Below are positions 30,781 through 55,443 of a stretch of DNA of 64,000 nt, one piece after another. A program made the position numbers and the translations under genes. Below the pieces are notes generated by a model. That model saw nothing but the letters and a program-made list of their open reading frames with translations, did no database searches and had not been told where the DNA came from. Origin of the DNA: Chytridium lagenaria (lineage: Eukaryota; Chytridiomycota; Chytridiomycetes; Chytridiales; Chytridiaceae); assembly GCA_025449115.1 (NCBI GenBank), contig JAHLKC010000140.1:1-64000 (forward strand), in the 5' to 3' direction. Numbering within the stretch: position 1 is the first letter of the stretch; the number at the start of each line of letters is the position of its first letter.

Positions 30781-33390
30781 TTACTTGCACGCTTGCGGTA
30801 ATACCTGGCAAACCCACGTCAACGTCCCCGCCACCACCGACACCCTCTGTGCCGTCATGATCTTGGACCCTACTGGCTCTAGGAGCAGCTTGCAAATCTC
30901 CTTACGACGGGAGAGTTCAAGCGATACCGTTCTTGACCGCGTATCGACCACAAACCCCAAGACCCGGATTGCCGTTCCAAACAGAACGTCCAGCTTCAGG
31001 TTATACCCCACAAACCGAAGACGCGGCGGACCTGCGCAATGGTCCTGTCCTCCATACCCTCCGGTACTGCACCGAAAAAATTATCGCTATACCCCACACA
31101 ATTGACACCCCCTTTACCCACAAGATCCAACACATACAGTTCCTAAAGTGACAGCAATGAAACCCCGCATCCCGCATCCCGAACATTAACGCGTGGTCCA
31201 CAAACAGCATGCCCTCCAACAACACACCCTGGTATAGCTGGTCAACCTCCCGGCGAGGGAATTGCCGGTACGTAGCCTTGGCGTCAACCATCCTTAAAAT
31301 GCACCCCACCAGCAACGCCGCCACCATTTGAAGAAGAGCGTCCACCCGATCCAAGAGACATGGCCCAAGGTAATCCCGCGACGTTAATCCATTGATACTC
31401 ACCAACCCACCGCCCCGAGGGAACGAGAAGTCGTGAACAAACCGCACCGTGCCATCTGGGGCACCCTCCTTCTGAACGGCCCCGACCAGTGCGTTTAAGG
31501 AAAACGGTAAACTGATGAACCTCAGCTACGGTGAATGGACCTGAACGCCGACCGAGTGCAACCTCCTGGCGCTGTTGACCCGTAACTGATCCGCCGCCGT
31601 CGGGCGGAACGCCATTGCCAAAGCGTTGTTAGAAACAACCACATGGCGTTCCTCCGGAATACCGCCGGCAGGGCAAACCCTTGCGCTAGGCCCCGGAGCA
31701 AGAAGTGTTGAAGCGGCTGGTTAGGGAAATCAACCGTCAACGCCGCAAACATATCCCCCAGATGGGAGTCACCAGCTTAGTCAACCCCTCTTGGTACACC
31801 AAACACCGCGCCACCCGGCGGTGGGAATCAGTGAAGGGAAGCTCCGCCGGCGCTGGGATACCCAATATCTTAAGTCGTGCCGGCACCACGGTCGTCAACG
31901 GCAGAACCATGCGGGGCAAATGCGCCGACCGGTGTCCCCTGCGGAATGTCCCCATGGATGCTCAACTATCGAAACTCGTGAGCAAACAAACAATCGCGAA
32001 ACCGGCAACCCTGTGACGAATTGAAATTAAAACAATACTCGGTACTCCCCTGCTGCCTGGTCCCCGGTATCCCCCCCGCCAACGAGCGCTTCCCCGGCTC
32101 TCGCCACCCCTGAGAGGAAGACACCGTTGCGGTGACCCTCCACATACGCACCACCAGATCCTTCTTCACCCCCCCGTTGTACCACCCCGGCCCCAATTGC
32201 CAGCATACGCTTTTAAAATAAGTACCGCTATTTAAGGAACGGAATCTCGTTGGAAAGCCGTGCACAAACGCACGCTCCTGGATCTTCATACACAGATGCC
32301 GCCGCCCAACCGTATAATGTCGTGGTTTGCAGAATCTGGTCATGGAACGAATCCAGTTCCTTAGCGCGGTGGGGGTAAAATACCAAAGCCGCCGCGCGGA
32401 ATCGGCGAAAAACCGTCAACCAACCCTCGAACCTAGCGAACTCCAACCCGGGGTCGACCTCATCCTCCGCCAAGCTAAAGCCGTCAACGTCAAGGATCAC
32501 CTTCTTAAGCGGCTTGACCACGGGTCAAACTTGATCATAGGGATATCGAGACCTTGCGCTAACTGATGCCACAGAGCCGGGAGTACGAATTGGCCACCAC
32601 CACGTTTCGACTCTGAACGAACTCGAGGACTTGCGCTTTCGTCATGCCCGCCAAAGCACCCCGAATATCCAGACTCAACTCCACATCCGCTGGCACTGTT
32701 ACTTGGGATACCAGGCCTGGGTGGACGGAACCACCCCCCCAAGAGCGGCCCACGGCCCTTCCTCCCCCGCGGCCCTCTGAAACACTGGCCGCTGAAATGC
32801 CCTCTGGCAACCCCGCCACCCCAGCCAAAACTCCCACTTGCTGCCCCACCTGCTGCTGTCCCCCCCCAGCTGTTCCACCTGCGCCATCCATGCGCTGGGG
32901 ACACCCCCGTGACCCAGCCAGGAGACTGCCTTCGCCACCTCCACCGAGACCGCGGTCCCCAACGCCTCAGCGACCAACCGGGGCAGCAGGCTCTCCAGCA
33001 GACCCTCGAGGCCGGCAGGCGCCGACCCTGATCCTCACGGTATGACGGTGCTGCTAACCCCGTCTCCCGCACCTCAAGCCCAGCCTCTAACCCAGACCAG
33101 TCCGGGTCCTCCAAGCCCAACCCCCGCAGTCCCAAGGCCGTCCGCCGCCGCTTGAACGCCGCCGTAGCACCTAGGACGGACCGCTCTGACGCCTCCACCG
33201 TCCTGCGGATACCAGAAACAAACTCCCCTACCCCGTCTGGCCGGTTCTGCGCCTGAAGTCCTCCCCCCACAGCCTGCACCGCCTCCGAGCCAGATCCCCC
33301 CACTTCAATTGGTTTCTCCACCCCATCCTCCTCCTCCGACCCAACCCCACTAGGCAACTTCCTCCCCGTAGTGCTGCCGAGCTGTGACAT
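30781..33390 (-). mobile_element. Decayed DIRS-like retroelement (gag-like, RT, partial RNase H)
   Basis: GC-rich island in an AT-richer setting. In transcription order, a gag-like frame opens at 33390 (MSQLGSTTGRKLPSG). It continues after frame changes with LEFARFEGWLTVFRRFRAAA and YPHRAKELDSFHDQI, and ends in a CCCH knuckle (CFNFNSSQGCRFRDCLFAH, near 31970-32035). Next comes NQPLQHFLLRGLAQGFALPA, the segment before RT in DIRS-type elements. The RT follows: RFVHDFSFPRG, ILRMVDAKATYRQFP (motif A), LMFGMRDAG, and a catalytic box reading GYSDNFFG instead of the usual YxDD. LGFVVDT and the KEI..LL helix follow near 30790-30930. The element stops there, with no tyrosine recombinase visible. Multiple frame breaks indicate an inactive copy. 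The DIRS assignment is by sequence style only; a related YR or LTR element is possible. Confidence 0.6.
31966..33390 (-). pseudogene. Gag-like ORF of the DIRS-like element
   Basis: Begins at the first ATG of the element. Its first part (32497-33390) is Gly/Arg/Trp-rich and probably partly out of frame, with VRETGLAAPSYREDQGRRLP near 33040. The second part, in another frame, has VILDVDGFSLAEDEVDPGLE and FYPHRAKELDSFHDQI, followed by a CCCH zinc knuckle at the C-terminus. This is the order expected for the nucleic-acid-binding ORF1 of DIRS-like elements. At least two frame changes break it. Confidence 0.5.
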
Positions 33391-33931: not shown

Positions 33932-35333
33932 ATGAGCAATGACAGTCTTCCTTTGACAGCCCACCCAAACTCTCCGTCCTCAAGCACCTTTCAGAGAAAA
34001 TTCGCCATCGCAAGAAACCCAATATCATCCCCGAAAGCCAACACGTCCTTCCTCCTCACCCAATCCACACCTCAATCAATCCCCACTCACTACCCTGTCT
34101 CGCCAACTTCTCCAAGGAAGCGTCCTTTATCACAAATCACAGATCAAGCCCCTACCCCACCCGGGAAACGAAAAGGATCGCCGAAAATGTCGGAACATCC
34201 ATCACCTTGCGAATCGGAAATTGCTATGGACATATTCAATCCCTCTGGCTCAGTAACGGAAGCTTCTACTGCATTGACGTTGGAATCCCATCGATCTCCA
34301 ATGCAACAGCACATCACGTCGACGCTTGAGCAAGCCACAATCCAACAAAATCCTTCCATGACTTCTTCAAATGAAGACGGTGATATCTCATGTTCCTCAC
34401 AATCTGCGAAAGACACGAAAAGTTCTGCTGCACCGGAAGCTGTAAGCGGAGTCGTCTCTCAGAACTCCAACTCAAATTTGATGCTCGAAGTTGCAGGTAA
34501 ATATCAAGCGTTTAGGAAAACCAGACTCAAAGTATATTTGAATGGGAGAAAAGGCCGAACAAGATATAGAAATTTGTGATGAGAAGATTGGCGCCCATAC
34601 CTTATTTTCTTTTGTGAAAACACGGCACTAAACACATTTACTAACTACTCTTTGTCACGAATACACCTAAAGACTTCTACAACGACGTTGACGTCAACGT
34701 TCTTATCTTCCTTGTCGCGGAAATCCTCGAATGTCTTACAGCGCACAACAACCGTCTTACCGTCAACCCGGCCAACATTACCCGATTCCATTCAAAGCGA
34801 GCTCCAGATATTTCCATCATCGAATACCTACGACGCATTGTCAAACACGGAGCTGTGAATCGATCATGCCTATTATCAATTTTAGTGTATATGGATAGGT
34901 AAGCCTTAGTCAATTATTCGAGCAGAAAGAATTTTAACCGATGTCTGTTATTTCAGAATGTGTTTTAGGCATAACATGTTCATGATTTCAAGCTTGACTG
35001 TCCACCGGTTCATCATCACAGCCGTCACCGTCTCCAGCAAGGTAAACATTACCCCGCTTATCCACATTTTGAGCCTTTTCTTTCCAGGCACACAGTGATA
35101 CCTACTTTTCCAACCGAGTCTATGCAGATGTCGGCGGTATCCCGCTCCGTGAACTCAATACCCTAGAACTTGACACACTATTCCATTTAAATTGGGACCT
35201 TCAAGTCACGAGCGACCGATTACAGACGTACTACGTAAACTTGATCAAACGACATAAAGGGTTCTTTTTTTCCAAGGATCGAAATGAGGTTTTGGCGTCG
35301 GGAGCGCCTGTGGTTGGGCAAACCACAGCATGA
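33932..35333 (+). CDS. Pho80-type (PCL family) cyclin, copy 1
   Basis: Regulatory cyclin expected to partner a Pho85-like CDK. Exon 1 (33932-34496) encodes a Ser/Pro/Thr-rich, basic N-terminus with SPRKRPLSQITDQAPTPPGK. Exon 2 starts at 34673 and restores phase (GAC codon): DFYNDVDVNVLIFLVAEILE, then FHSKRAPDISIIEYLRRIVK and HGAVNRSCLLSILVYMDR. Exon 3: MISSLTVHRFIITAVTVSSK. Exon 4: DTYFSNRVYADVGGIPLREL, NTLELDTLFHLNWDLQV and QTYYVNLIKRH, ending at 35333. These blocks match Pho80/PCL cyclins in order, including the VGG(I/L)xLxELNxLE motif. All exon joins keep frame, so this copy looks intact. A related, damaged copy lies at 38190-39376. Confidence 0.88.
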
Positions 35334-35864
35334 AGGCCCGAAATTGAGAAACCTTTTTTGTAAACTGTTTAAACCATCCCTGGTTACTATTTTTGTTTTT
35401 CTTTTCTGGCTGCTCAGCGCCATTTGGTTTTCGGCCTGAGAACCCAACGCCAAGTTGCGAACAGGGTTGACTTGGGACTTGAGGGTGTTTCCGGTCCCCA
35501 ACGTGGCATGCTTGGGTTGATTGGGCGTGAAACTCCCGCCTCAAACTTTTCGAATTTTAGATGAAAGATTCATATGCGGATGATTATAGAAACTAGAAAG
35601 GTCATTTAATGAAATATAGACAGGAGCCACTGTGTGTGCAGAATAAGCGTTTACGTGTTCAAGTTTACATAAACATGATACAAAGCAAGTGACCATACCA
35701 AAGAACATCAAAAGAATCTCTGTAGGCGCCGCAGCATCAAATCCAGCTACATCCAACACGTCCTAACAAAAAATACGCCGACTAGTCTTTTTTCAATATC
35801 CAATCGAGGCGTTGATGATCCAACTAGAGGCGTCCAGCGTTATATCTTCAGTACCTATCTAAGC
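35334..35864. other. Spacer between cyclin 1 and repeat array 1
   Basis: Contains the cyclin 3' region and unassigned sequence. The minus strand has a short frame (35541-35759) with no recognisable domain. Nothing else is seen. Confidence 0.3.
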
Positions 35865-36885
35865 TATTACAAGATAGATAAAGATTGTCTCTTTCCAGTC
35901 TGGACCCGTTCGTTAACTTCTAGTATCGGTGACCTCGTATTCACATATTGTCCTAATCAAAACTGTTTCTGACTTTTTAGAAACGAAGCTAAACATTACT
36001 TTGAGTTAACTTAGCAAAAGAAAAACATACTTAGCTTCTTCAGCACCGTCCCAAATAAACGTGGATAACACCCCTTCACTCGCTTCCGTGGTGTCGCAGA
36101 TGGAGTTGAATCGACTAGAAAATTAAAAGACGAATGAGTTTCTTCTTCGTCTGGTCTCTTTCGTGACCTCGTATTAACCGTTTTCTCGGTCGTATGGCAA
36201 CTGTCGTCAATGTTGGCATGAAAGCAATTGAAAAAAAAAACCGAAGGGAATGAAGGGTTTTTCATGGTCTGGTCTTTTTCGTGACCTCGTGGCATCCGCT
36301 CGAAATCGCGGCCTGGGATCTCGCTGTCGATATCAAAGCTATTAATAAGAAAGAGGAATCTCGGGTCCACCCAGTCCGGACTCGTTCGTGAACTCCTAGT
36401 ATTGGTCACCTCAAATCCACACATTTTCCTAATTAAAACAGTTGATTAGAACTGATTTTGAGAAAAGGAAACTTATCATTCCTTTGTTTTAACGATGCAA
36501 AAGAAAGATACTCAGCTATTTCAGCAATATCCACGAATACACGTTGACGAAACACCTTCACTCGCTGTCGTGGTGTTGCAGATTGAGTCGAATCTAGAAT
36601 TTAAAGAAAGGATGAATTTCTTCTTCGTCTGGTCTCGTTAGTGACCTTGTGTCGACCGTTGCCTCGATCGTAAGGCATCTTGTCATTAATGTTGGCATCA
36701 AGGCTATTGAAGAACAAACGGAAGGAAATGGAGGGTTCTTCCCGGTCTGGTCTTAGTCGTGACCTCATGGCATCCGTTGCCTCGAAATCGCGGCTTGTAA
36801 TCTCAAAGATCCAATCGGAACCGTGCAAGCAAAAGGTACGAAATCCGGGAGGCGCCTTCAATCTGTTGAACATCTGGTGAACTTT
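35865..36885. repeat. Nested tandem-repeat array, block 1
   Basis: About two units of roughly 490 bp. Each unit holds: a module with TCTGGTCTCGTTCGTGACC-like sequence ending CATCAAAGCTATT; a second, related module; a module with CCGTTCGTGAACTCCTAGT; and a segment with TTCACTCGCTTTCGTGGTG. The first ~245 bp (35868-36115) is almost identical to 43496-43740 in block 2, pointing to recent copying. On the minus strand two frames are open: 36011-36424 (137 codons, starting MCGFEVTNTRSSRTSPDW) and 36601-36873 (90 codons, starting MFNRLKAPPGFRTFCL). Whether these are expressed is unknown. Confidence 0.75.
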
Positions 36886-38189
36886 TGTTAAGACACGTTC
36901 TTGTTGATCATTTTTATAAATTGTGGTATGAAATTAATTAATCGACCAAGTCGAAACTTTGAGGTTTGTGGTTTTATTTTCAATTTGGATTAGGGGGGAG
37001 TACGGTGCTTGTACGGTCCGCACCTAACGATGTAAAATAATCGCTTAAAGGGATATTAGATCCCCGGTCATGCTCAATTTTGAAGCCACGGAATGTGGAA
37101 GGTAGATGATGTTCGTAGCCATTGCATTGTTGGGTTTGGTAAGCGTCGTGGACTACCGCAGCTAATTTTTTTCCCTCTTATACTACTGTGCATCAACCAG
37201 ATGTATTTATTGGACCGAGTTATCCAACTTATTGTGAGAAGACATTATTTATATGGCTTAACATATTTTTTCATTCAATCGATTGACGACGATGAATTGT
37301 TTTTTTTGTCCTCACTTCTTTTTAAGACAACCTATTAGAGCTACCCCGCGCACGCAGTATTTTAATGACTGCAGTGGACACACGGGGTCTACACGGTCCC
37401 CTAATATGACGAGGCGTCCACGAACGGTTTGGCACCCTTGAAGTATTATTGGTGCGAAGGGCATGCGCGTCTGAGTGATTTATCATTTGACTTGGGATAC
37501 CCTGTAAGTATTAATAGTTATACAAGAAAAAACTGTTGGCACCTTTATCTTTAGTAGGGGGTTTTCTTTAATGCGGTGACTGTGAGCTGTCTCCTCATCA
37601 GCCAAGATGAGGGGCTTTAATTTAATCATTTTAATATCGGACATGAAAAGACGGCTGTGCTCTGATGCATGTGGACGGGAGCTAAATTTTTAATATATAT
37701 TATATTTAATATTATTATTATATTTGCCTGCGCAGTACTCCGCTCCCCACCCATCATTACCCACAGCAACCCACTGTACTGACCCTCAAACCCACCAGTG
37801 CACCCACCCGCAGCTGAATGACGGATTTCAAGTTTCTGTTGACGAGCTGCAAAGCTCAGCCGAGTTTGGGTTGTTTGAGGTTAAACAAGTGCGCATGCGC
37901 AAAGAAAATGAAGAAATTGCTTTGAACCCGAGTAGCTGGTCGCGTGCCACTCTGATAAGGCGCCGATTTTCTTGCATGATTACGGGGCGGTTAGTCCAAG
38001 CCCGAGGACGGAAAGGCGTTGTCCCTTCCTCCTTATTTCCTTCTTCTTTCTTTCCTTTTGTCGTTAACCTACTAGCAGCGAATGTACGCCGCATTAACGT
38101 CAACTCCATTTTCAATTTGTTTATGAAGGCCGCCGTCATTTGCTTTCATCAGTGAACCATCATTACTAGCGTTATTCTCAAAGACCACA
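36886..38189. other. Spacer upstream of cyclin 2
   Basis: AT-rich at 36900-37730, including TATATATTATATTTAATATT near 37690-37710. From 37724 the composition becomes richer in GC. An open frame of 143 codons (37724-38155, plus) has no recognised domain and is probably leader sequence of the second cyclin. No other gene is seen. Confidence 0.3.
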
Positions 38190-39376
38190 ATGAACACCTG
38201 CGTTGTCTTGCTTGGAGATGCCTGCTCCACCTCGTCCTCAAGCATTTCAGAGACACAGCTCTTTCAAACTCAATGCTCACGACCCTGCGCAAGATTCAAC
38301 GTCATCGTCCGTTCTTTGAAGTCATCTCTACCCCTACACAACCCCACAGCCACCGAACCTCACACACCAAGCTCACCTATTGACTGTAGCCCCAATAAGA
38401 GAAAGGGACCTCCTACTACCGAACCTCCATCGAAACGGACCGCTTCTAAGTCGTTGCCTGAGCCTACCTATGAAGTGGAGTATGCACCGACTACACCGAA
38501 GGACGAACCTAGCGCTGGCTGCGCCTTCACAGCAGGAAGCTCGTCAACATTGATTAAACACTTGCCAACCGCATCGACCCTATACCTTTTCAAACTCCCA
38601 CAACTCCACACTCTATACCCACAGAGCCTCCCAAGGAAACCACGTCAACTATGATGGTTGCAGGTAACCAACCTTTCTTTTTTATCTTTTAAAAGTATTG
38701 ACTCTATCCCGTAAGACTTTTACAACGACGTCGACATTAATGTCCTCATCTTCCTTGTCGCCGAGATTCTTGACTGCCTCACAGCCCACAATGACCGAAT
38801 CCCCATTTGCGCATCTTCCATCACCCGCTTCCATTCCCGCAAACCGGCGCCTATATCCATCATTGATTATTTGAGACGGATTGTGAAGCATGGAGCTGTG
38901 AATAGGTCTTGTCTGTTATCAGTATTAATATTTATGGACAGGTGGGATGATTTTCTTTTTTCTTATGCTTTAAGGGTATCCTTTTTTCCCTTTGTTTTAA
39001 TATTGTATATCTAGAATGTGTGCAAGGGATAATACGTTTATTGATTTCCAGCCTCACCGTACATCGTTTCATCATCACCGCTATCACCGTTTCATGCAAG
39101 GTAAAGAATATTCTCTTGTCCTTTATTATAATGCCATAAAATACCCTCAACTCTAATCTTTCTGCATAAATCAGGTCGTCAGCGATACCTACTACAGCAA
39201 CAAAGTGTTACGCCGAACTTGGCGGTCTCCCGCTTCGTGAACTTAACGCACTTGAACTCGATTTCGCCTTTTTGTTAAACTGGGAACTTGGGACGAATGT
39301 TGAGCATCTTCAGACGTATTACTTTAGTCTCTTAAGAGACATGCTGGCTTGTGTTTACAGATGTAGGGAGGGCTAG
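38190..39376 (+). CDS. Pho80-type cyclin, copy 2, with frame breaks
   Basis: Paralogue of the cyclin at 33932-35333. Exon 1 encodes a Ser/Pro-rich N-terminus with SPNKRKGPPTTEPPSKRT; its start is uncertain (38190, or 38218 in another frame) and a shift is needed near 38580. Exon 2 (from 38717) is nearly the same as in copy 1: DFYNDVDINVLIFLVAEILD, SITRFHSRKPAPISIIDYLR and HGAVNRSCLLSVLIFMDR. Exon 3 needs a one-base shift near 39030 to give LISSLTVHRFIITAITVSCK. Exon 4 needs one near 39205 to give CYAELGGLPLRELNALELDF and LLNWELGTNVEHLQTYYFSL, ending at 39376. The conserved core without stops in the right frames suggests either indel errors or a recent pseudogene. Confidence 0.7.
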
Positions 39377-40789
39377 CTTCGGGGTGCTGTGAAGATCCAT
39401 GTCAACACAGAGTCTCGTCGCTTCATTCTCTTATACCTTTTTGCTGCTTTTCATTCATGTTCCCTATTTATAGTTTTGCATTTTCTTTCTTTTTGTCTTA
39501 AGCCCACAAAACGTGTTTATAGATATGGCCCTTCCAACTAATTGTACAGTTCTTCGTTCCCTCTTTTTTCTCTTTCCGCCCCTTTGTTTTAAATAACATC
39601 TTTTTTTATGTTTCAACCAACCATGCTCCGATAAGCCCCCCTTTTTTTTTCTGCGGCTTCCAACTTGAGGTAGAGTCATAGAAAACTTGCCCACTTTTTT
39701 ATTTTGGGTTTTGGTATTTCGCCACCCTGACATTTACTGCAAACTTTGAAACACTAACGCCGTTCTAAATTATGCAGCCCTATTTCAGAACATCATATTA
39801 AAGTGTTTTCCAAAAAACTTATTACCGCGTTTTTATACAAGCATATGTCACGATGTTTTTTTTATCTCAAATCACTCAATTACAATTACAATGAGGGAGT
39901 GTTTGGCATAAAATAAACGAACTGCATACTCTACGCTTTAACTCTTCTTAAAAATGTCAGTCTTTTTGTTAATGTTGCCTTTTACAGTCCGGCAGTGGCA
40001 GAATGACGGACGCCCTTCATGTGTTTAAAATGAGCAAAATCACGCACCGATGGTACTCTGCTTTTGCGCATATATGTACATATGTATACTTTAAAGATGT
40101 CCATCGATGTATTGCAATTAAAATGATTTTTATTTTTCATCAATACATTTCGTTGGTCTTGCGCTTTCACCAAGAAATTCTCAGAACGATTCTCGTGCAC
40201 GTACCGAAACACGTCCAGATGCCTACTTCCCGCCAGGTATCAAAAAAATCACGGTCACTATATTCATGGAAAAGAGGCGTGTTTAGATTGCCTATAAGCT
40301 TCATTCTATCCCCGTAATTTCAGAAGAGGTAACGCACCACTTTTGAATATCCACCTCCACGAGCTCAATGGATAATTTGCTATCCTTTCACCATTCCCCA
40401 CTTAAATTGCAAACTTAATTGATAACATGGAGGTGGCTGTTGACGAGTGCGAACCACATCTCACAAGCATTTGTAGCGATTCTATCTGCCAGAATGCTGT
40501 CAACCTCATGCAACCACAGCTCTATAATACCACTCACCAACTTATCAGTGTTAACAATACGATATCGGACATTTTTACGTCAATACCTTATCTCGCAGCT
40601 AATTTCTACCTAGATATATATCAAATAAAGCTCGATATCTCATCAAACAATATCACTTTGCCTTCAATCTTGTCTAGAAGTAATGTCTCTTTCCATTCTC
40701 AAACATATCCAACATGTTTAGCGAATCCCATTAAAACAACATATGCAGATTTCATCTCAGAGCGTTCCCACCATAGGTCTCGCAAACTT
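39377..40789. other. Spacer with an unassigned ORF entering the repeat
   Basis: Mostly AT-rich. A plus-strand frame of 174 codons (40427-40951) begins MEVAVDECEPHLTSICSDSI and runs into repeat block 2, where its C-terminus is the translated repeat (SGLVRDLVASVASKSR). The non-repeat part matches nothing I recognise. It may be chance or a small gene whose 3' end was captured by the array. Confidence 0.3.
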
Positions 40790-43700
40790 TTTCTACTCCC
40801 TCAAGCTGTTCGGTCGTTTTCGTGGTCGCAAAGGGAATCGAACCATTTTTCTGAAAAACGAAATTGTGAGGGAGTGTTGGGTTCTTCTTCGTCTGGTCTC
40901 GTTCGTGACCTCGTGGCATCCGTTGCCTCGAAATCGCGGCCTACAGTCTAGCTGGATATCAAAGCTATTCATAAAAAAGAGAAAAATCGGCTTCTTCAAG
41001 TCTGGACCCGTTCGTAAAGTCCTACTATCGTTGACCACATTTTCACATTTTTTTTAAATTAAAAAAGTTGATAAGCACTGGATTTTGAGAAAACCAAACT
41101 GATACTTACTCTGTGTTAACGAGGCAAAATAAAGATAAACTTCTTCAACAAACATACCCGTATACACGTGGACTAGACACATTCTTTTTCTTGGGTCGCA
41201 GGTCAAGTCAAAGCTTTAACTAACCAGTTTTTTTTCGTCTGGTCTCGTTCGTGACCTCGTGTCGACCGTTGCCTTGATCGTATGGCACCTTCTCGTTTAT
41301 GTCGGCATCAAAGCTTTTGACAAAAAAGGGATGGGAATGGAGAGTTCTTCCAATAGGCTTTTTCTTCGTCTGGTGTCGTTCGTGACCTCGTGTCGACCGT
41401 TCCCTCGATTGTCTGGCACCTTCTCGTTTATATCGGCATCGAAGCTTATGACGAAAAAGGGATGGGAATGAGGAGTTCTTCCACGTCTGGTCTCAGCCGT
41501 GACCTCGTGGCAACCGTTGCCTCGGTCTCATGGCATCTTGTCATCAATGTTGGCATCAAAGCTATTGAAAAAATGAATGGGAATGGAGTATTCTTCCCGT
41601 CTTGTCTTAGTCGTGACCTCGTGGCATCCGTGGCCTCGAAGTCGCGGCGTGGCATCTCGCTGTCGATATCGACGCTATTCTTTTAAAAAAATAGAAAAAT
41701 CGGCTCCTTTCAGTCTGCACCCGTTCGTGAACTTCTAGTTTCGGTGGACTGGCATTCACATATTTTCATACTTAAAATACTTGGTTAGTACCAAATCTTG
41801 AAACTAATCATGACTTTGTATTAACGAAGAAAACATAGATATACTTAACTTCTTCAGTAAACATCCCCGTATACACGTGGACTAGACACTCTCTTTCGTG
41901 GTGTCGCAGATCGAGTCGAAGCTATAATGTTGAAAAGGATTGGAAAATTGTGTTTCTTGTTCCGGTGGTCTCGTTCTTGACCTCGAGGCGTCTGTTCCTC
42001 GAAATCGCAGCCTGGGATCTCGCTCTCGTTATCGATGCTATTTATGAGGGAAAGGGCATTTGGCTTCTTCCAGTCTGGGTCCGAATGTAAAATAATAGCA
42101 ATGTGGGCCTCGCATTCGCATCTTGGTTCCTGGTGAAAGATTAGGTGAATGTCTTATTTAAATAAGCTCAGTTATCTTTTTTTTCTCTGGGAAAGAACAA
42201 AATAATAATTGGTCTTACCTTTTTCGGCAAAATCCCCATAAATATTTCGGCGGGAAAATCTACCATGGAACGCTCTCGTGCTGTCTTGATCGTGACGTTG
42301 CTGATGGAAACAAAGCTATATATGAAATTAAGAAAACATGAGAAAGATTTGGGTTCTTCTCCGTCTCGCTCGTGACCTCGTCCGATGCCTGGTACTCGCG
42401 GCTCTGGACGTTGCTATTGGCATCAAAGGTATCTAGAAAAAAGGATTAGTAAAATGGATTCTTGTTAGTCCCGTCGCCCGTGACCTCGTGGTATCCGTTA
42501 TCTCGTGCTTGAGGCTTGAGATCTCGCTGTAGGTATCATTGCTAAGCTGTCAATATCGAGGCTATTGATCAGAAAGAGGAATTCGAATCCTTCTAGTCTG
42601 GACCCGTTTTCTAACTCGTAACGTCTGCAGTGGCGTCGGATTAGAACATTGAGTCTTATATAATTGGAAGAGTTGTTTATGATTAGTACCGAATTTTGTA
42701 ACATCTAATCATTACTGATGACAAAAGAACTTAGCTTATTCAGCAACATCCTATCAACACGTGGGCCAGATCCCTTCTTGGGCTCTCTGACATCGTTTCG
42801 TTCGCTTTACTGCTGCAAAGGATAGAGTCAAGGCTGCCATTTTAAAAAACGATGTGGTAAAGTGGGTTTTTTCTCGACCCCGTCCGTTTTCCTAGGTCGT
42901 ATGGCAACTTGTCGTCAATATTGACATCAAACCTATTATTAAAAAAGGAAGGGAGGAGCAAATTCTTCTCCGTTTGTCTCAGTCGCGTCTTGTTGCATCC
43001 GTTGCCTCGAAATCGTGGCCTGGATCTCGCTGTCAATATCGTCTTATTAATACGAGAGAGGAACATCGGGACCCGTTCGTGAACTCCTAGTGTCGGTAAC
43101 CTCGCATTCACAGATTTTCCTACTTCAACTAGGTTAGTACTAAATTTTGAGAAAACTAAAATAATCATGACTTTGTATTAATGAAGCAAAAGACAATATA
43201 GTTAGCTTCTTCAGCAACATCCCCAAATAAGCGTGGACTACACCCTTCACTCGCTTTCGTGTGTCGCAGATGGAGCCGAAACTAGAAATTTAAAGGAGGA
43301 ATGGTTCTTCTTCGTCTGGTCTCGTTCGTGACCTCGTGGCATCCGAGCTTCCGTCGTATGGCGCCTTGTCATTAATGTCAGCATCAAACTGTTGAAAAAA
43401 AGAAACGGGAAGAAGGTTCTTCCCCGTCTGGTCCTAGTTGTAACCTGTGGCATCTTGCCTCTAAATCGCGGCCTGGAATCTCGCTATCGATATCTAAGCT
43501 ATTACAAGATAGATAAAATTGTCCTCTTTCCGTCTGGACCCGTTCGTTAACTCTAGTATCGGAGACCTCGTATTCACATATTGTCCTAATCAAAATTGTT
43601 TCTGACTTTTTAGAAACGAAGCTAAACATTACCTTGAGTTAACTTAGCAAAAGAAAACATACTTAGCTTCTTCAGCACCGTCCCAATAAACGTGGATAAC

Positions 43701-46700
43701 ACCCCTTCACTCGCTTTCGTGGTGTCGCAGATGGAGTTGAATATAAAAAACTTTACTTCGAATGAATTTCTTCTTCGTCTGGTCTCGTTCGTGACCTCGT
43801 GTTGAACGTTGCCTGGATAGTATGTCATCTTGTCAATAATGCTGGCATCAAAGCTATTAAAGAAAATGGAAGGGAACGGAGGGTTCTTCCCGGTCTGGTC
43901 TTATTCGTGACCTCGTGGCATCCGTCGCCTCGAAGTCGCGGTCTTAAATCCCCGTCTGGTCTCAGTCGTGACCTCGTGGCATCCGTTGCCTCGAAATCGC
44001 GGAGTGGAATCTCGCTGTCGACATCGAAGCTACTCATAATAAAAAAAGAAAAATCGACTCGTTCCAGTCTGGACCGTTCGTGAACTTCCAGTGTCGGTCA
44101 CATCGTATTCACATGATTTCCTAGTTAGATTTGTTGGTTAGTGCTGAATTTTGAAAAAGCCAAACTATATAATCATTACTTTTTGTGAACGAAGCAAAAA
44201 AAGAACATACTTAGCTTCTTCAGCAACAACCCTAATACATGCAGACCGCACCATTCACTCGCTTTCGTAGTGTCGCAGAAGGAGTTGAATCTCGTCAATG
44301 TTGGCATTAAAACTAATAAAGAAAAATAAAGGGAGCGGAGGGTTCTTCCCCGTCTAGTCTCAGTCGTGACCTCGTGGCAGCGTTGCCTCGAATTGCAGCT
44401 TGAGATCTCGCTGTCGATATCAAAGCTATTCATGCGAAAGAGGAAGATTGCGTTCTTCCAGCCGGACTCGTTCGTGAACTCCTAGTATCGTTGACCTCAA
44501 ATTCACATATTGTCCTAATAAAAAAACTTGATTAGACCTGGGTTTTGAAAAAACGAAACTTATCATTATTTATGTTAACGACGCAACGAAAAGATACTTA
44601 GCTTCTTCAGCAACATCCCCGAATAAGCGTGAACCACACCCCTTCACTCGTTTTCGTGGTGTCGCAGACCGAGTCGCATCGAGAATTTTGAAGAACGGAT
44701 GAGTTTCTTCTTCGTTTGGTCTCCTTCGTGACCTCGTGTCAACCGTTGCCTCGGTCGTATGGCAACTTCTCGTCAATGTTGGCATCAAAGCTATTCAAAA
44801 AAAAAAAGGGAAAGGAATGGAGGATTCTTCCATCTGGTCTCAGTCGTGACCTTGCGGCATCCGTTGCCTCGAAATCGCGGCATGGAATTTCGCTGTCGAT
44901 ATCAAAGCTATTTATGCGAAAGAGAAGAATCGGAGTGTCGGTAACCCTCTCATTCACATACTGTCCTGATTAACAAAGTCGGTTAGTACTGAATCTTAGG
45001 AAAACAAACCAATCATTACTTTCTGTGAACGAAGCCAAAAAAGATATACTTAACTTCTTCAGCAACATCCCCGAATACGTATGGACTACAACCCTTCACT
45101 CGTTTTCGTGGTATCGGCAGACGGAGTCGAATTTAGAATTTAAAGAACAAATGAGATTCTTTTTCGTGTGGTCTCGTTCCTGACCTCGTGTCGACCGTTG
45201 CCTCAGTCGTAGAGCACCTTGTCGTCATGTCGGCATCAAAGCTATTTCAAAATGGAATGGGAGTGGAGGGTTCTTCCTTGTCTTGTCTTAGTTGTGACCT
45301 TGCGGCATCCGCTGCCTCGAAATCGCGGCTTGTAATCTCGCTGTCGATATAAAAGCTATTTATAGAAAACGGGAAAAGCGGCTTCTTCCACTCTGCACCC
45401 TTTCGTGAATTTCTAGTGTCGGTGACCTCGTATTCACATATTTTTCTACCTAAAATAGATGCTTAGTACCGAATCTTGAAACTAATCATGACTTTGTATT
45501 AACGAAGAAAAACATAGATAGACTTAACTTCTTAAGCAAACATCCCCGTATACAATTCGTCTAGACACACTCTCTTGCGTGGTGTCGCATACCGAGTCGA
45601 AGCTATTACGTTAAAAAGGGGTTTGGAAATTAAGTTTCTTGTTCCTGTGGTCTCGTTCTTGACCTCGTCGCATCCGTTCCTCGAAATCGCGGCCTGGGAT
45701 CTCGTTATCGATTCCAGTTTGTTCCCGACTGTAAAAAGTATTAGCAACGTGGGCCTCGCATTCGCATCTTGGATCCTAGTGAATGATTCGGTGAGTGTCC
45801 TAATTAAGAAAACTCAGTTATGTCATATTTTTTTTTCTGGTAAAGAACAAAAATAACAATTCGACTTCGCTTACTCGGCAGAATCCCCATAAATATGTCG
45901 GCGAGAAAATCTACTATTGAACGCTCTCGTGCTATTTCGGTCGTGACGTTGCAGATGGAAGCAAATCTATTCAAAAATAAGAAATATGAGAATGAATCGG
46001 GTTCGTCTCCGTCTCGTTCGCAGCGTCGTGGTATCAGATGGCCTTGGACGTCGCTATCGGCATCAAGGGTATCTAGAAGAAAGGATTAGTAAAATGGATT
46101 CTTGTTAGTCTCGTCGCCCGTGGCCTCGTGGTATCCGTTATCTCGTACTTGAGGCTTGAGATCTCGCTGTCGGTATCAATGCTAGTGAAAAGCGGGAGGG
46201 GAATCGAGATCTTCGGATCTGGATCCGATCGTAAAGTGATGGTTTCGTCGGTCGTCGGCCTTACATTCGTATCTTGGATTCTTATTAGAGAGTTGGTTAG
46301 TCTTGAATTTGAGAAAACAGTATATTTTTATTTTTTCATGAAGAACAAAGATAATTGATATACTTAGCTATTCGGCATCCCAGCAGAATGAGGCTTGAGA
46401 TCTCGCTGTCGGTATCGATGCTAACGAAAAGGGGGAGGGAGAATCGAGTTCTTCGGATCTGGATCCGATCGTAAAGTGATGGTCTCGTCGATCGTTGGCC
46501 TTACGTTCCTATCTTGGATTCTTGTTGAGTTAGTTGGTTCGTATTGAAATTGAGAAAAACGATATATTTATTATGTTTTTATGAAGAAGAGAGACAACTG
46601 ATAAACTTAGCTTTTCGTCCATATCCCGTCAATCATGCATCTTCTGCTGATTACCCTGTAAGTGTTTCGGTCGATTTCATGGCGTCGTCGTTTGAATGGA
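40790..46700. repeat. Nested tandem-repeat array, block 2 (about 5.9 kb)
   Basis: About nine or ten diverged units. The marker segment with (T/A)CACTCG(C/T)TTTCGTGGT recurs near 41190, 41890, 43248, 43705, 44255, 44645, 45097 and 45560, so spacing is irregular: mostly 390-550 bp, with longer gaps of about 700 and 1350 bp. Each unit contains two or more related ~115 bp modules with GTGACCTCGTG and GCATC(A)AAGCTATT; between 41220 and 41690 there are four in a row, so module number varies. A linking segment holds, on the minus strand, G(C/T)TAAGTAT, then TACTAAC, then a T-rich stretch and AG, resembling an intron. A diverged subfamily occupies 41900-42560 and 45560-46200, about 3.7 kb apart and similar to each other. 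Short frames run through the modules on both strands without a continuous ORF. Confidence 0.8.
46153..46620. repeat. Direct tandem duplication of about 230 bp
   Basis: Two adjacent copies (about 46153-46384 and 46389-46620) share GAGATCTCGCTGTCGGTATC, CGGATCTGGATCCGATCGTA and ATCTTGGATTCTT. They belong to the outer, diverged part of repeat block 2. No coding sequence is seen. Confidence 0.7.
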
Positions 46701-49700
46701 AGCAATAGAAAAAAATAAAGAGGCATTGGAGTTTTCGAATAGATAGGAGCAAATCGTGTTGCTCGATTGCGAACCATCGTGAGGTAGTGGCGTTTTCGGC
46801 TCTGATAATGGGTTCAATAAAAAAAAAGAAAAATTCCTGACGTATTGGGAATTCGCTGTTGCATTAAAGTGACAAAGTAAAGCAACGGGAACCAGGGGAT
46901 TAATTGTCTTGGCTCGATCTTAGTGCCTCGCAACCGCGTGTTGGGATCATACCATAGATCTTGCCTTCAGGACCGTCGAAGTCGTGTTGACATATTACAT
47001 CAATACCATTGTGAGCGAATGAAGGTGGGCAAAGGGAATCGATCGTAACCGTGCGGTAATCACTTCGTTTTTTAAAGCCGCTTGAATAACGTAAGTCAAG
47101 ATATTAAAGGATGTTGACTTCGCAAAGGATTAGAATAAACTTACCTGCTCATATGCCTTCGTTGAAAATGCTATACAGCTTGTTTGTGCCGACCGCTCAG
47201 GCTTTATTCGTATTCACCATCATTATCGTTTTTAAATTTCGAAGTTGTTGCCACCTCTGCCATCAAATACGTTTTCTGATTGGATCGCTAATTTTGGAGA
47301 GGAACGATGTTATAAGAACAAAAAGGATTCGGAATGGTCACATACCAAGTAAGTCTTGAGTTTAAGGCCTCGTACTTGAGCTGCTACCCATACGACGGCC
47401 TATCGCTAAGCTTATTGATACTGTCTTGATCTCCTATAGCCGCGTTGGCATCGTTGCCTTGAAGAGATTTCTGTCGAAGGTCGTTGCTAGTTGAAGGTGG
47501 TCGACACTACAAGCCGTGCTGGAGTCTCTGTCATCATATAAAAGTGGTGAAGTTAGACGGTTCAGGGTAGACCAACAAGTGACGTAACCAACCTCTCCCC
47601 GACGTCGAACCACGCGATCCCGAGGTTTTTATCGTCTTACATTTCTATCCCTTGCATCATAGGAATTAGACAGTTGATCTCAAGAAGGCGTCGAGAAGGA
47701 TAATATCGTGAGGCGACACCGTTGTTATAAGTGGTGATGTGAAGATCCAGATATTTTGACTTTGGGGAAGGATATGCGGGAGATGCTGGTTAAGACGCTG
47801 GGGACCGGAAGGAATGCCACGGATAGGAATATCGCATATAACATATACGCCAACCACACTGCTCGCTCGGTACTCTTTCGAAGCGTCATCAAGTTCCTGA
47901 GGTATCTTGTGACGGTGTCGCCCGCGTCGATATTCTTGACCAACTGGATTGCCTTCGCTACATGTTGATGCCTTGGAGTAGAGGTCAGCTGCAAAGAAGA
48001 CAGGACATTAAGGTTTTGGTTGAGAGCACGCTACATGTTGATGCCTTACAGTAGATGTCAGCTGCAAAGAAGAAAGGACGATGGTTTCGTCGAGAGCAGT
48101 GAAGGAAGAAGGGATGAAGGAGTCGAGTGAAGGACAGAAGGAGAAGAGCGAGGGAGTGATGGTTGTTGACAAAAAAAAGGTGTTTACAAAAACATTTTTG
48201 TTCTCCTTTGTTTGTTGTCCTGCTGCAAATATTTTAACATCCTCCTGAAGTGACGATCCTTTCCTCATTTTTCTAATTCTCTTCTCGTTTTTACCCTTTT
48301 CTCGTCCTTTCTTCCTTTGCTTTTGCTTTTGAGCATCGTTTATCTTCTTTCTTTGTTTGTGGATCGTGTGAAATGGGGGTGCAGGATGGAGATCCCAAGG
48401 CAGGCTGACTTGTTTTGTCAACGCAGGGAGTTACTCTCCACTCTTTGTTTGCTTTGTTGGGGATTGAGGATTTGCGGTGAAAGGAAGAGGCGGGAGGGGA
48501 TGTATGCTATTGGAGGAGACTGGTGTATATACGGAGGTAGAAGATGACAGGAAGACGGGAGCAATGATGAACGACCTCCTAAGAAAGGAAGCTCTCGAAA
48601 TGATACGACTCCTCGCGCTTTTAAAGGAAGAGCAGTAAAAGGAGGTGTCAACAGCGCAGATATCATAGCTGACTTGTGCTAGAAAGAGGAGGAGATTGAG
48701 AGAGGAGGAGATTGAAGGGTTTGCTAACATGATGAATGGGAAGTAGGATATAAGAGGGGGGTCGAAGGAGAAGGACTATCCCTAAACAACTACAGCTACT
48801 CTATCTTTACCTACTAAATCTGCTCCTTCACTTTACCATCCAAATATTCCTCAATCTCTGCTGTCGATGCTCGAGACATAGCTCGCTCCTCCCTCCCACT
48901 TCTTAACTCGAAATGATTTATTATTTGAAATTACAAAAATCACTTTTCAAACTCGTTTTTTGCCGCCCATTCTTGAAGATCTTGGGAGGCACTTGAAATA
49001 TGATATGGGCTGTGGCTTCCTTTGATGGAGAGAACATGGAGCATCATTTATTTATAAAGCATCATGTTTATGCACGCGACAGGCGATACGGGACGGGCGA
49101 AAGTCATATTTGACTTTTTGTTTTGATACTGATGCCGTCGAATATTTGGAAAGTACGTGAAAGAGCATCAAACAGGTTTGAGTTTGCTTGTGAAGTTGAC
49201 CTAGCTGGGATTAATCTGTTGATTTTTTAAAAACGTAATTTATACTATTGAAATTGAAATAAATCATAGAAATAAATATCAATACTTCACCATAAGTGTG
49301 TATGGCAATATGCGCGTAGAATTAATCGGAGATTCTCATGTTAGATTCGCAGGGGAGTAGTCAGTTAAAGAGTAAATTCAGTTCATCTGCGACAGTCCAA
49401 ACTTTAAAAGGTTTCCGTGTAGCTTGAACCAAAAACAAACGTAAAGGTCAAAAGAAGACAGTTATTTTCTTCTCAACTCACATTCTTTTTCCATTTAAAA
49501 CAACGCACGTTTTGCCTATTCGATTTTCCATCATCCTCCTATATTCCACGTTTGCACTTTAAAAGAATCCCTAACTGCAGGCAGAAGCGAATGCACCAAT
49601 ATCTAAAAAGCGGTCAGAAGCCTTATCAACATTTCATCTCGCATTCTTTTGAATAACCTTATATCTGTAACGAGTGAGCAAAGAACCTTTAAACACTACG

Positions 49701-50100
49701 ATGAAAGAAACATGGATCCAGCGATTTCACGTACCTGCACGCATCAATAATGCATGGATTAGCCATGGTTCCTTTATCATCAAGATCATTCATGACCTTA
49801 TGGTTGAAAATGTTGAGCTGTGCCGGCAAAGAGATCCTTTGCGGCCCTTCCTACCACTGTTTTGAACGAGGAAACCGCTTCCCTTCGATGCCCTCAATAT
49901 TAACGTCATTACATTTTGAAAAGAAATCTGAAGGGGGGCCGAGTGGAGTATTATTTTACAAAGGAAGAGGAGGATTGAAGAAAGCGCAAAATCGATGGAG
50001 TGATGTGACGTTCCTCCCTTCAGTTTCTCAACAAAAAAACACTAAAGTTGTCCCAGTAGTGTGGACGGCTTGGTTCGTGATCCTAATGTACGTACTGTTC
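46701..50100. other. 3.4 kb region without a recognisable gene
   Basis: Sequence right of the repeat array. It holds an imperfect direct duplication of about 50 bp (47958-48008 and 48031-48081; shared core GCTACATGTTGATGCCTT and AGCTGCAAAGAAG). Open frames over 47725-47994 exist on both strands and cannot be assigned. The part from 48900 to 49660 is AT-rich. I see no conserved domain. Confidence 0.35.
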
Positions 50101-51079
50101 TAATTCGCCATCAAAAACGCTGCACTCGACGGGAATGCCAGTAATTGAGGAATGCTCAGGCTTCTTTTATTATCTACTTGGAACAAAAACAAAAACAAAA
50201 TATGAGGCGAAAGATAGGAAACGGGGGAAATTAAAGGAAAATAAAATATCAGGCTGTGCTTGATTCTGGTACCCTGATTCGGCATCGGAGGTCCCCCATT
50301 CCGTCTCTGCAAATCATCCAACAACGAAAGCGCACCCTCAATAGACGCATTCGCGGCTCTCCGCATCTGAAATGATGCTGGTTCAATGGACGAAACAGAT
50401 GACCTGCATATGCAGGGTACGCCGATCTCTGCTGAGACTGCGATCGAGACGGGAAGGGTTGTTGCGGTCTCCCTAAAACCGTCGCGGAGGATCTTGCACG
50501 GCCATACCCGCTTGATGTGCTCGACATCAGGAATGACGTTCGATCAAGGGATGCGTTTGGGTATCTGTTGTTGTTGTTGTTGAGGCCACCCGTTGGATGG
50601 GGGTGGCATCCCATAAGGTTTTCCGGGCTGTCCTGGTCTCTGTCTCGCTGCCGTGCAAGGACCCGGCGGCAAACGGTGTAGTGGGTGACGGAGGGTGTGG
50701 CGACGGGGGATGGCGAGTTATACCCCGCCGAGAAGTCTCGGATGGATGTGGGGTGGAGCGACCTGATTCGGATGAGATGATGGATTGAACGGGTTTTGCG
50801 CGTGGTGCAATGTTGATTGTGCGAGATGCGATGGGCGGCATGATGTGCATGACTTCGGTCTCATCGGAGGGTCGACGTGCGAGTCCGGTTCCTATGAGTT
50901 GGGGACGTTGTGGGACGGGGGCGGGTTGTGGGGAAATGGGGGGGGGGGCATGTTTCCATGGGTGCCGGTGGAGCAGGTTGAGGCATCTGCATCTGCATCT
51001 GGAGTTATTGCATGATGAGGAGTTGCTGTGGATCGATGGGGGGTCGTTGAGGTTGCATTAGATACGTTGGGGCGCTCAT
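50101..51079 (-). CDS. Gln/Pro/Asn-rich hypothetical protein
   Basis: Minus-strand sequence with protein-like bias but no recognised domain. It begins MSAPTYLMQPQRPPIDPQQ at 51079. After a frame change near 51015 come LQMQMQMPQPAPPAPME, then SIISSESGRSTPHPSE, GLNNNNNRYPNASLDR, GRPQQPFPSRSQSQQRSAYP and NASIEGALSLLDDLQRRNGG. Several one-base shifts are needed (near 51015, 50610 and 50365). The end is uncertain: the last frame stays open to 50101 but reads like non-coding sequence after about 50225. Ser/Pro/Gln composition suggests a disordered regulatory protein; no function is assigned. Confidence 0.4.
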
Positions 51080-51636
51080 GAGTCCTGGGGAGGCGCCTGA
51101 AACGGATACTGGCATCGCGAATAAGGTTTTGCAATAATGGATTGATTCACTTTCGTATTGTCAGTACTTTATTTTACATTGGTTGACATAACGCGTTAGG
51201 GCACTTCGATATTTGTATGTTAAATTCATGAAAGGCAGCATAATAACGCAGAGCAGTGACCATAGCGATTTCGTACGCCGTCGAGATTGTGGTCGATTAT
51301 CTATTGTCGAAAAAGAAAGTAGTGAATCAACTCGCACTTTTCGGAAAGGGCCTCCCGAAAAATGTGCAAAATGCAAAGTGGGCAATGACGTCGACGATGG
51401 TTGCCAGGAGATTTTGACCCAATGGAGCATGCTCTGCTAAATGTATTGTTTTGTCTTCTTTTAGGATACATTATGCAGAATTTGGTAATGAAAATCAAGG
51501 ACCATATAAATGATTGTTTCCCGTGGTCTTTTGATACAGTATGTATTAAAAAATCGTGTAAAATTATGCCCGAGGTTCTTCCTTGTTACAGAAAAGAATC
51601 CCCCCTTCAACCAACGCCATTCTCTATCAAATATTT
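51080..51636. other. Spacer between the Q/P-rich gene and the ABC transporter
   Basis: Holds the promoter side of the Q/P-rich gene and the 3' end of the transporter gene, both on the minus strand. Small open frames here have no recognisable sequence. Confidence 0.3.
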
Positions 51637-54600
51637 TCAGCCCCCCCTCAACCAACCCCTCCTCTCATTCTCCTCCTCCGACAACCGATTATACAACCTC
51701 CAATATGCCCCTCTCTTCCTTATAAGTTCATCATGTTTCCCTGCACCAAAAAAAACACCACAAAATCAACACACAAAAAACACACCAAAAATCTTACCTG
51801 TCTCTAAAATATTCCCAGCCCGCAACGCCCCACTCATCACAACAATCAAATCCGCGGCTTGGATCGTACTGAGACGGTCTACAACAAACAAAACAAAAAA
51901 AGGTAAGGGGGGGCATGGAAGCGAAGGAGGGAAGATGTAAAGGCTTACGTGCTATGACGAGGACGGTGCGACCTTTCATGAGCTTTTCAAGCGCGTCTTG
52001 GACGATACGTTCGGATTGAGCTAGGGAAAGGGGGTCAGGTCATCATATGGAGGATTTGGTGGACTTACTGTCAAGAGCAGAGGTGGCTTCGTCAAGAATA
52101 AGCACCTACACAATATTTCAATACAATCGGTTGACTTATAACGGCATACCTTTGGATCCTTCAAGATGGCGCCTACCCAACGACAAAAAAAAAGATCTAT
52201 GTTAACCCCGCAAAAAAATAGACAAAAAAATAAGACTCTAAACCCAAACACTCACGAGCAATCGCAATCCTCTGTTTCTGACCTACACCAAAAGCAACCA
52301 TTAAAATCCCAACTTCCAAATCAAAAAAAAAAGAAAAAAAGAGGGAAAAATAGTCTCACCTCCTGAAAGCGTTACCCCTCTTTCTCCAACCAAAGTCCCA
52401 TACCCCTGTGGGAATTTCCCGATAAACTCTGCCGCATTCGCCTTCCTCGCCGCCTCTTCCACCTCCTCTAAACTCGCATCAGGACGTCCATACCTGATGT
52501 TCTCTAAAATCGACGTTGCAAACAACACAGGCTGTATTTTTTTCACACGCATCAGAATAAGAAAAAATGGGTGGAGGGGGATACCTCTTGGTTAATGTAT
52601 CCAACATTTTCGCGGATCCAGCTGCATAGGTGAGAAACAAGATAAAAAGCATGGCATACCTTGGATTAAGTTGACGGATGTCATAGTTATCAATGAGGAT
52701 AGCGCCACGATCAGTATCGTAGAAACGCTCGATGAGCTACGAGATGGCTTGTCAAAAGGGGCCAGACGTTGAAATAAGCTCCTACCTGTCCAACCGTGCT
52801 TTTCCCGCTCCCACTGGGTCCACAAAGTGCAACAACTTTTCCAACGGGAAGGGTGAGGCTGAAATCTTGGAGGACAGGGTGTCCAGGTCGAGTCGGGTAC
52901 TGAAAAGGTAAGCCCGAAAAATAAAAGGTGGTTTTTCTTACAGTGAATGAAACGTCTTTGAATTCGATAAAACCTACACCATATGTTAGTGGGTTTTTAA
53001 GGTATAAGGGAAAGGGGGGAATGTACCGTTCATCTTCGCAGGTCGAATCCCAACATCAACAGGAATGCTGGCTTTATGATCAATATACTCAATCACGCGA
53101 GCCGCCGATCCAAGCGCCTTTATGACTTGACCAAACAGAACTCCAATTTGTGCTAAAATTGATAAAAAAAAGGATTAGAAAACATGACAACCGGGGGACG
53201 GGATAAAAAAAAACAACAAACATAAAGATCTTTGAGCGCTTTGAGTTGAAACCATATACGTCATGAGCTATTTGTTTTTGTAAGAAATATGTAAATTGTT
53301 TTATGGATAAACGAGGGTCAATGTTTTTTTTTACCTGTCCACCTGTCATTTCCCCCTTTACAACAAGCGATCCGCCATAATACAAAACCATCAAAATCAT
53401 ACCCCCAATCGACATTGTCGTCAGCCCTTTAGAAACAAATGTCAAAACCCCCGAAAAATATATAACACCACGTATTAAAAAGTTTCTGAAGTCGTTTTCA
53501 ATACGAGAAACAAAGAAAAAACAAAAACAAAAATGACAACCAACAAACAACAACAAAAAAAACTCACCTTGAAACACTCCAATATGAAATCCCAACTTCC
53601 GATTCCCCATCCCCGCCTCCTCCGCCATCCCAAGATACCTCTCAACCTCCCTCCCTCTCCAGCAAAAGCCCTCACCGTCCTCACATTCGACACCGCCTCC
53701 CCAGCAACCCCAGCAGCTCTAGCCTCCCCCTCCCTCGCGATCCTCGACACCCTCCGCAAAAAGCTCCCGTACATGTTCATCGCCACATAAAGCACCGGCA
53801 TCGTCGCTAATAACAAGCCAGTGAGACGTGGAGAGAGTCGAGTGAGTTGGTACAGCGTTCCAAGGATTTGAGCGAGACAGCGAAGACCCTGATTTGAATT
53901 TTTTTCACATTTTAAAAAAGATTGAACCTTCCCCCTCCTTCTCACCTGTGTGATTACCAGCTTGAATGTATGCTACAAATAGAACCCTTCAGTCAATTTA
54001 CAAAAAAAACCCTCAAACATACCTTAAACTCCCCGACATCCTGCGCCAACCTCCCCACAACCTCCCCCTGCATACGACCATCGAAAAACGCCATATCCTG
54101 TCCTAAAATCGATTCATAAAGCCGGCCTCTCAACCTTACAGCCACCCGTTCCCCAAGTACCGTCACAAGGTGGATATCAATACAGGTCAACAATCCTAAC
54201 CAAAACCGCGTCAACCAAGGAAAAAAAACGCGGAGGAGGAGAAGAGGCTAGGGAATCAGCAGTAGTGAAGAAAGGAAAAGAAACGCGGGTGCATGGCGGT
54301 ATTAATCAAACGCAGAGGGAATAAGAGGTGGGGGAATGAGCAGTTGGGAAGGAAGGAAAAGAAACGCGGGTGCATGGCGGTGTTTTACCTTGAAGCGCAA
54401 ACATTGTCAACAGTTTCATCGCTGGTTCATTCAACGATGTTAACGTGGTCGTGGAATTCGTAGATAGATTCTGAACACCGTCACAAGGTCACCTATGATA
54501 CGGTGTCGTGATATTGATAAGGGCTGTAACGGTAGTAACAGCAATAATCTACGAATCAATAAAAAAAAACACCTTCCAAAAAGAAAAACAACCCCGCCGT

Positions 54601-55045
54601 ACTTACTGTCACCAAAAGTCCAATATCCGGGCTCACAGCATCCACAACATCATTCAACAATCCCAAACTCCCCTTCCTTTCCACCTCCCCACTCTTCTCA
54701 ATCGACACTTCAAGATTACTTTCCTCCGCATCCGCTCTCAACCCTTTCGTCTCCCGTTTATCGTCCTTCCACATCCTAACCCCCGCAAACCCCATCGCCG
54801 CAATCACGGGCAGCCATCAACCCCATCATACGCCAACTCGGCCATGAGACGGAGGTCCACGGCCTGTGAGGTTGTTGCGGACTTCGCGGTGAATTCGTCG
54901 CGAGGGTCTTTGTATTGGGTAAAGAGACGGTGGTGAGGGATGCGGAGAGGGTGAGGTGGATGTGAGGGGTGAAGAAGAGGCGGGGGGTGTGGGTGAGAGT
55001 TTTGGAGGGATGGAGCAGACGGAGGAGACGCATGGTTTGGGACAA
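51637..55045 (-). CDS. Mitochondrial ABC half-transporter, ABCB8-type
   Basis: Half-size exporter (one membrane domain plus one ATPase domain) probably in the mitochondrial inner membrane. The N-terminus at 55045 ([20 protein letters not shown]) is Arg/Ser/Thr/Leu-rich like a presequence. The membrane domain has [77 protein letters not shown] and [20 protein letters not shown], close to ABCB8. The ATPase domain has Walker A ([13 protein letters not shown]), Q-loop region, [37 protein letters not shown], signature [12 protein letters not shown] split by an intron, Walker [14 protein letters not shown], and the H-loop [17 protein letters not shown]. The last exon encodes [20 protein letters not shown] and stops at 51637. 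More than ten short introns, several only 50-60 bp, divide it. N-terminal exon joins (54240-54800) are uncertain. Confidence 0.85.
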
Positions 55046-55443
55046 CTTATTTTTTTCGGTTTGAGCTCGTGTGACGGAGAACGAACTCGGGGAGTCCGTC
55101 GTTCGTGGCCGTGTCTAGAATGTTCGATGAGTCGAATGGGTTTCGGGGTAAGATGGTTTCGGGTAAGATGTTGGTACTCGGACGTTTTGGAGATGACTTA
55201 TCGTGATAACGCCACTCGACGATTTCAATAGTGGTATGCGTACAGGTGAACGGAATAAAATTGGAAGTTATCATTTATGTAAACAGTACTCGATTTGTTA
55301 AAAACCTTTCAAAATATCTATTAAATAAAATAAAACACTTGCAAAAGCCAAAGGGGGTATAACAACAATCCCTCCACACACCAAATAATTTAAAAAAAGA
55401 GAAAAAAAAAAGGCAACCAAAACGTGATGTTGTTTTTTTTCTT
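55046..55443. other. Spacer between NRG1-like gene 3' end and ABC transporter start
   Basis: Contains the transporter promoter on the minus strand. The part from 55300 to 55440 is A-rich (AAAAAAAGAGAAAAAAAAAA) and probably includes the 3' UTR of the zinc-finger gene. No gene is seen. Confidence 0.35.

Follow-up and report, generated by a model that had tools for sequence, protein, structure and literature searches.

The closest described systems to the repeat considered here are the locus-specific degenerate complex tandem repeats of intergenic DNA and HOR satellite DNA, with exon-duplicated genes as a further comparison, and no family built on this module is known to us. The repeat lies in a stretch of 64,000 nucleotides (the window) which makes up positions 1–64000 of contig C140, in a genome of 41.9 Mb and 356 contigs. 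The sulfite oxidase ORF of this contig is 100% identical to a protein of Chytridium lagenaria in the 66% of the query that aligns, which points to this chytrid or a strain very near it as the host; among other species, Phlyctochytrium planicorne and P. bullatum come nearest for this protein. HOR satellites are taken here as defined in part of PMC8122249, where adjacent HOR blocks of alpha satellite are given as up to 97–100% alike and monomers as about 70% alike. An earlier note on the window had described a nested repeat array with intron-like linkers, leaving it open whether this was a gene, a non-coding transcript, a satellite or an unclassified element. Among these options a satellite-like tandem repeat fits best, while an exon-duplicated gene with linkers as introns finds no support; with a probability of about 0.8, the best explanation of the array is a relic, locus-specific, non-coding higher-order tandem repeat that was copied as part of a segment and is not homogenised.

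Organisation of the array

Unit-profile matches run throughout the main array (Table 1), with one weak extra match at 46855–46957 (E 0.46), and every one of the 75 module-profile matches with E<1e-3 on C140 lies on the plus strand, the region from 35 to 47 kb holding 32 of them; a set of 20 windows of 64 kb, simulated with a Markov model, had no module match at E<=1. The nested array is thus real and the main array extends as the earlier note claimed, although the repeat is wider than it had supposed, with two more units in a detached fragment to the left and three further loci. The tandem monomers (modules of ~110 bp) are grouped into a larger repeated unit, in which a type-1 module is typically followed by one of type 2 and by a partly alike third module; next come the linker, which is a long spacer rich in A+T, and a segment with TCGAAGCTA-like words at its end, before the next type-1 module. 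With a spacing filter of 250–900 bp, which removed one spacing of 239 bp, the unit spacing is 363–826 bp for the 10 units kept in the main array (396–531 bp for 7 of them), while the second array of C140 has spacings of 334–834 bp.

Growth at two levels, also proposed from the letters of the window, is supported by reciprocal profile search, in which the two module types prove to be related over nearly their full length. A type-1-only profile recovers 14 of 14 type-2 window modules and a type-2-only profile 8 of 8 type-1 window modules (E<1e-3 in each case), although it should be noted that these 22 modules were picked from the stronger matches of a mixed profile, that the types were set by one gap column and that one of the 14 type-2 modules, 45155, seems wrongly typed, matching type 1 at E 1.7e-25. 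For the third module in a unit the likeness is partial and weak, one of nine tested places giving E<1e-3, and this with the type-2 profile only. Mean identity is 81% among type-1 modules, 76% among type-2 modules and 63.5% between types, as averaged over 45 modules picked out of 102 profile matches on C140. At the level of the unit, mean identity hardly changes with distance (65.7–79.3% in the main array and 65.1–72.7% in the second), and homogenised, near-identical units were not found within the array, where the mean is 65–79% at every distance. There is therefore no strong sign of recent duplication between neighbours, two local cases found by TRF (Table 1) excepted.

The observed/expected ratio of CpG is 1.30 in the array (40880–46720), compared with 0.89 elsewhere in the window (1–35000 and 52001–64000) and 0.98 in the right flank, an excess that drift does not explain.

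Table 1. Positions of the array, its flanks and neighbouring features in the window
Feature	Position	Strand	Evidence
Main two-level tandem array, all matches in one orientation	40808..46733	+	unit, linker and module profile matches
One module duplicated locally in tandem, 131 bp x 2.0, 90% match	41228..41483	+	TRF
Example of A+T-rich intron-like linker, GTTAGT to TTCTTCAG on plus strand	41784..41857		sequence, linker alignment
About half a module duplicated locally in tandem, 61 bp x 1.9, 90% match	43888..44002	+	TRF
Detached array fragment, about two units, at left end of inserted segment	35856..36806	+	profile matches; alignment to C105 and C140 93 kb
Remainder of inserted segment, without counterpart in C105 or at C140 93 kb (the C233 contig stops short of it)	36807..40165		flank alignments
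Left flank common to C140 93.2 kb (92%) and C105 105 kb (89%); includes part of open frame 40406–40951, which runs into the first module	40166..40807		flank alignments
Right flank common to all four loci, 87–90%, to about 50138	46734..50200		flank alignments
Part of neighbouring gene (a single gene by eye, from its ORFs), of which C233 and C105 have a longer version	50185..51116	-	ORFs, alignments
tRNA-Leu(CAA) and tRNA-Pro(AGG) genes	30167–30248 and 30315–30386	-	Rfam, ARAGORN

Copies of the locus and their divergence

Searching the whole assembly with pieces of the array located it at four places in all, that of the window included. Two array-piece queries together with right-end and flank queries place the array at two loci on C140 and at one each on contigs C105 and C233, and the array-piece queries match these three contigs only, among the best candidates; as the genome search scores best candidates only, these locus counts are lower bounds. 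The second C140 copy lies ~50 kb along the same contig in direct orientation. The right flank is common to all four loci and the left flank to three of the four, the C233 contig ending inside the array. Relative to C105 and to the C140 copy at 93 kb, the window copy carries on its left side, within the flank, an inserted segment of ~4.3 kb (about 35854–40165), for which no clear target-site duplication was found; part of it, at about 38.7–39.1 kb, resembles 34670–35046 at 68%. A stretch of the neighbouring gene on C233 (20535–21833) is without match in the window copy. The window copy is a second locus, in which the neighbouring gene is incomplete.

The other three copies resemble one another more closely. 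C140 at 80–108 kb and C105 are 97–99% alike outside the array's middle and 92.5–93.5% alike in the middle pieces, with C105 carrying about 20 kb extra; C233 aligns with C105 almost from end to end, for the most part at 96–98%, though individual pieces are at 81 and 93%. The second C140 locus (87–108 kb), C105 and C233 are taken here to be a single locus in three versions, which may be allelic. Sulfite oxidase on C140 is single-copy by genome search, so that not everything is duplicated. With regard to a possible subtelomeric repeat, a telomere-type pattern has 357 matches in the genome, and the matches listed run up to C42, before C105, C140 and C233 are reached. The ~20 kb absent from the matching place on C140 is C105:112062–132630, which includes ORFs that by eye look like a Helitron-type helicase. 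ORFs resembling retrotransposon fragments, again by eye, lie on the minus strand at 31001–31525 and 62980–63570 in the window and at 64163–67943 on C140; Pfam gave no family for the two in the window.

Eight of the 10 main-array units each pair with one second-array unit at 89–96% identity, with order kept, whereas other unit pairs are mostly 55–82% alike and some 83–90%. The best partner of unit 43473 is 87% alike and that of unit 44882 only 83%, so that these lack such a partner, as do nine of the 18 units of the second array, of which six lie consecutively at 98.3–101.0 kb. The array thus probably predates the segmental copy.

In the orthologous parts of the window array and the second array there are 173 substitutions in 3,700 sites (4.7%), taking seven units and the array end; unit 40941 is omitted from this figure (10.6% of 594 sites; about 5.5% when it is included), and units 43473 and 44882 lie outside it. 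The flanks of the same loci differ by 6.4% of 676 sites on the left and 5.3% of 2,995 sites on the right. By BLAST pieces the array differs by 4.0, 7.4 and 9.0% and the flanks by 6.0 and 6.4%, and this range of 4.0–9.0% indicates that rates vary along the array. Judged from substitutions, the array drifts about as fast as adjacent DNA. Among the more similar copies, divergence between C140 and C105 is 0.86% in the array, 1.43% in the left flank and 0.82% in the right; between C140 and C233 it is 0.92% in the array and 1.85% in the right flank; and between C105 and C233 it is 0.18% in the array and 1.64% in the right flank, a pair that also shows numerous one-base indels. The C140/C233 and C105/C233 figures lean to constraint or exchange, whereas the other comparisons do not.

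The history that we propose begins with duplication of a ~110-bp module, whose copies, as their similarity shows, diverged into types. About three modules together with a longer A+T-rich spacer then formed a unit of ~480 bp, and this unit, as similarity again shows, was amplified in tandem, presumably by slippage or unequal exchange. The shared flanks show a later duplication of the locus as a whole segment, flanks included. Since then most units have kept their identity and order while drifting at about the rate of the flanks, and the two arrays have come to differ through loss or gain of units. The linkers would be A+T-rich spacers of the third module, their splice-like words stemming from the founding unit; the array illustrates that tandem repeats may plausibly owe an intron-like look to a single founding unit.

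Genes, transcripts and mobile elements as alternatives

The motifs from which the linkers had been said to look like introns are present, though some copies lack them. In the 33 linkers of C140, which come from two arrays so that partner copies are counted twice, GCTAAGTAT or GTTAAGTAT occurs in 17 on the minus strand, exact TACTAAC in 9 and any CTAAY in 19 (on this strand donor and branch words were scored). The linker can also be read on the plus strand, as had been said (see the example in Table 1), where GT is found in 19 linkers, AG in 21 and both together in just 10. Ranked by conservation among 319 columns, the plus-strand donor G stands at 0.13, among the least conserved 13%, the donor T at 0.78, the acceptor at 0.51 and the minus-strand donor at 0.60–0.78. 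Splice sites in use should rank among the best kept and the linker columns scored do not, so that conserved introns are unsupported.

A multi-exon gene or pseudogene formed by exon duplication, with the linkers as its introns, would nevertheless account for the splice-like words in many linkers. In the neighbouring gene a single candidate for an intron-like break, read by eye, carries GTAATT, GACTAAC and ACAG, and CTAAC words likely mark at least one intron in this region. Open frames such as SGLSRDLVASVASKSR are recurrent, and the translated motif said to be shared by the modules is indeed seen, as ATRSRLRPDGEE-like strings in minus-strand ORFs. There are also more ORFs than simulated, both of 60 aa or more (35 versus 26 in the window array and 60 versus 40 in the second array) and of 100 aa or more (5 versus 3.2 and 12 versus 4.9, respectively), although a repeated low-stop module would yield the same excess. 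A frame conserved across copies, the absence of which the earlier note would have held against a gene, is however not kept: type-1 and type-2 modules are separated by a one-base gap that shifts the reading frame, and indels ignore the frame, multiples of three making up 5 of 47 between the window array and the second array and 6 of 70 between the near-identical array versions of C140, C105 and C233 (some single-base indels may be assembly errors). Variability with period three is borderline in type-1 modules (permutation P 0.049) and not seen in type-2 modules (P 0.64), the test using 17 of 17 and 24 of 28 modules, respectively, with gappier rows dropped. The ORFs are no longer than chance, the longest being 111 aa in the window array (simulated mean 131) and 125 aa in the second array, lengths at least equalled in 82.5 and 74% of 200 simulations, respectively. 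A protein search with profiles of five plus-strand and six minus-strand ORFs gave nothing at E<=10; the candidates were restricted in length, and those for the plus set also to the 7,985 with the most words in common. Taken together, these results make such a gene or pseudogene very unlikely.

A non-coding transcript or cluster of small-RNA genes, with the modules as functional units, is unlikely. The consistent orientation of all modules, the CpG enrichment of the array and the strong conservation of core columns around GTGACCTCGTG in the module alignment would be in keeping with it, but the consensus structure computed by RNAalifold for the plus strand has no pairs, whether from 45 modules or from 26 linker rows, among which was an accidental 20-base stub, and folding z-scores are ordinary in the four modules tested on both strands (−1.70 to +0.20). 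Rfam gave no family at gathering level in the array, with only weak chance-level rows at a lax setting, and the substitution rate of the array is near that of its flanks. Very unlikely, too, is a functional non-coding locus specific to chytrids (for example a long transcript or a protein-binding array), with the CpG-rich module cores as working parts, which would have been copied together with the neighbouring gene because it regulates that gene. The first unit has minus-strand words that resemble a Pol III B box; an origin from tRNA or a SINE was rejected, as ARAGORN and Rfam found no tRNA in the array. A word in the linker that resembles an Sm site led to consideration of spliced-leader RNA genes, which were set aside because the array copies are strongly diverged.

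Least likely of all is a mobile element, or the internal tandem repeat of one. The two-unit fragment within the inserted segment is consistent with mobility, as are ORFs in the neighbourhood that by eye resemble reverse transcriptase and helicase, but the four loci found (a lower bound) have flanks in common and no terminal repeats bound the array. The module was thus not found dispersed with TIRs or LTRs, which the earlier note had given as the mark of an ordinary transposon. Between 39800 and 47400 the inverted repeats found were two 16-nt pairs, neither bounding the array; repeats between the two flanks are none longer than 27 bp, all with E>0.1; and copies dispersed in different flanks were not found, except for the two-unit fragment.

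Comparison with known systems

The relic tandem repeat favoured here is a curiosity and not a new kind of system, and no new class is opened by it; it serves as a minor case of a tandem repeat that is built at two levels but no longer shows homogenisation. The exact module pattern has no matches in viral_contigs and genome_contigs (by description viral, bacterial and archaeal DNA, with no fungi), and in the tandem-repeat literature the 10 papers listed of 167 and the 10 listed of 1,485 contain neither the word chytrid nor Chytridiomycota. With exon-duplicated genes the array shares tandem exon-like modules with intron-like spacers between them, but it differs in having no kept frame, conserved splice sites or protein match. 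Like HOR satellite DNA (e.g. primate alpha satellite), it consists of diverged monomers, here of about 110 bp, multimerised into a larger tandem unit that is apparently non-coding. It is not filed as an HOR satellite, as the mode of growth is alike but the features of homogenisation and abundance fail: unlike the HORs of alpha satellite, most unit pairs within the array are 55–82% alike, and unlike an abundant satellite family it was found at four places (a lower bound), each under 10 kb. With locus-specific degenerate complex tandem repeats it has in common a single syntenic context, a near-neutral rate and a unit number that varies between copies, differing from them in its two-level organisation and long units.
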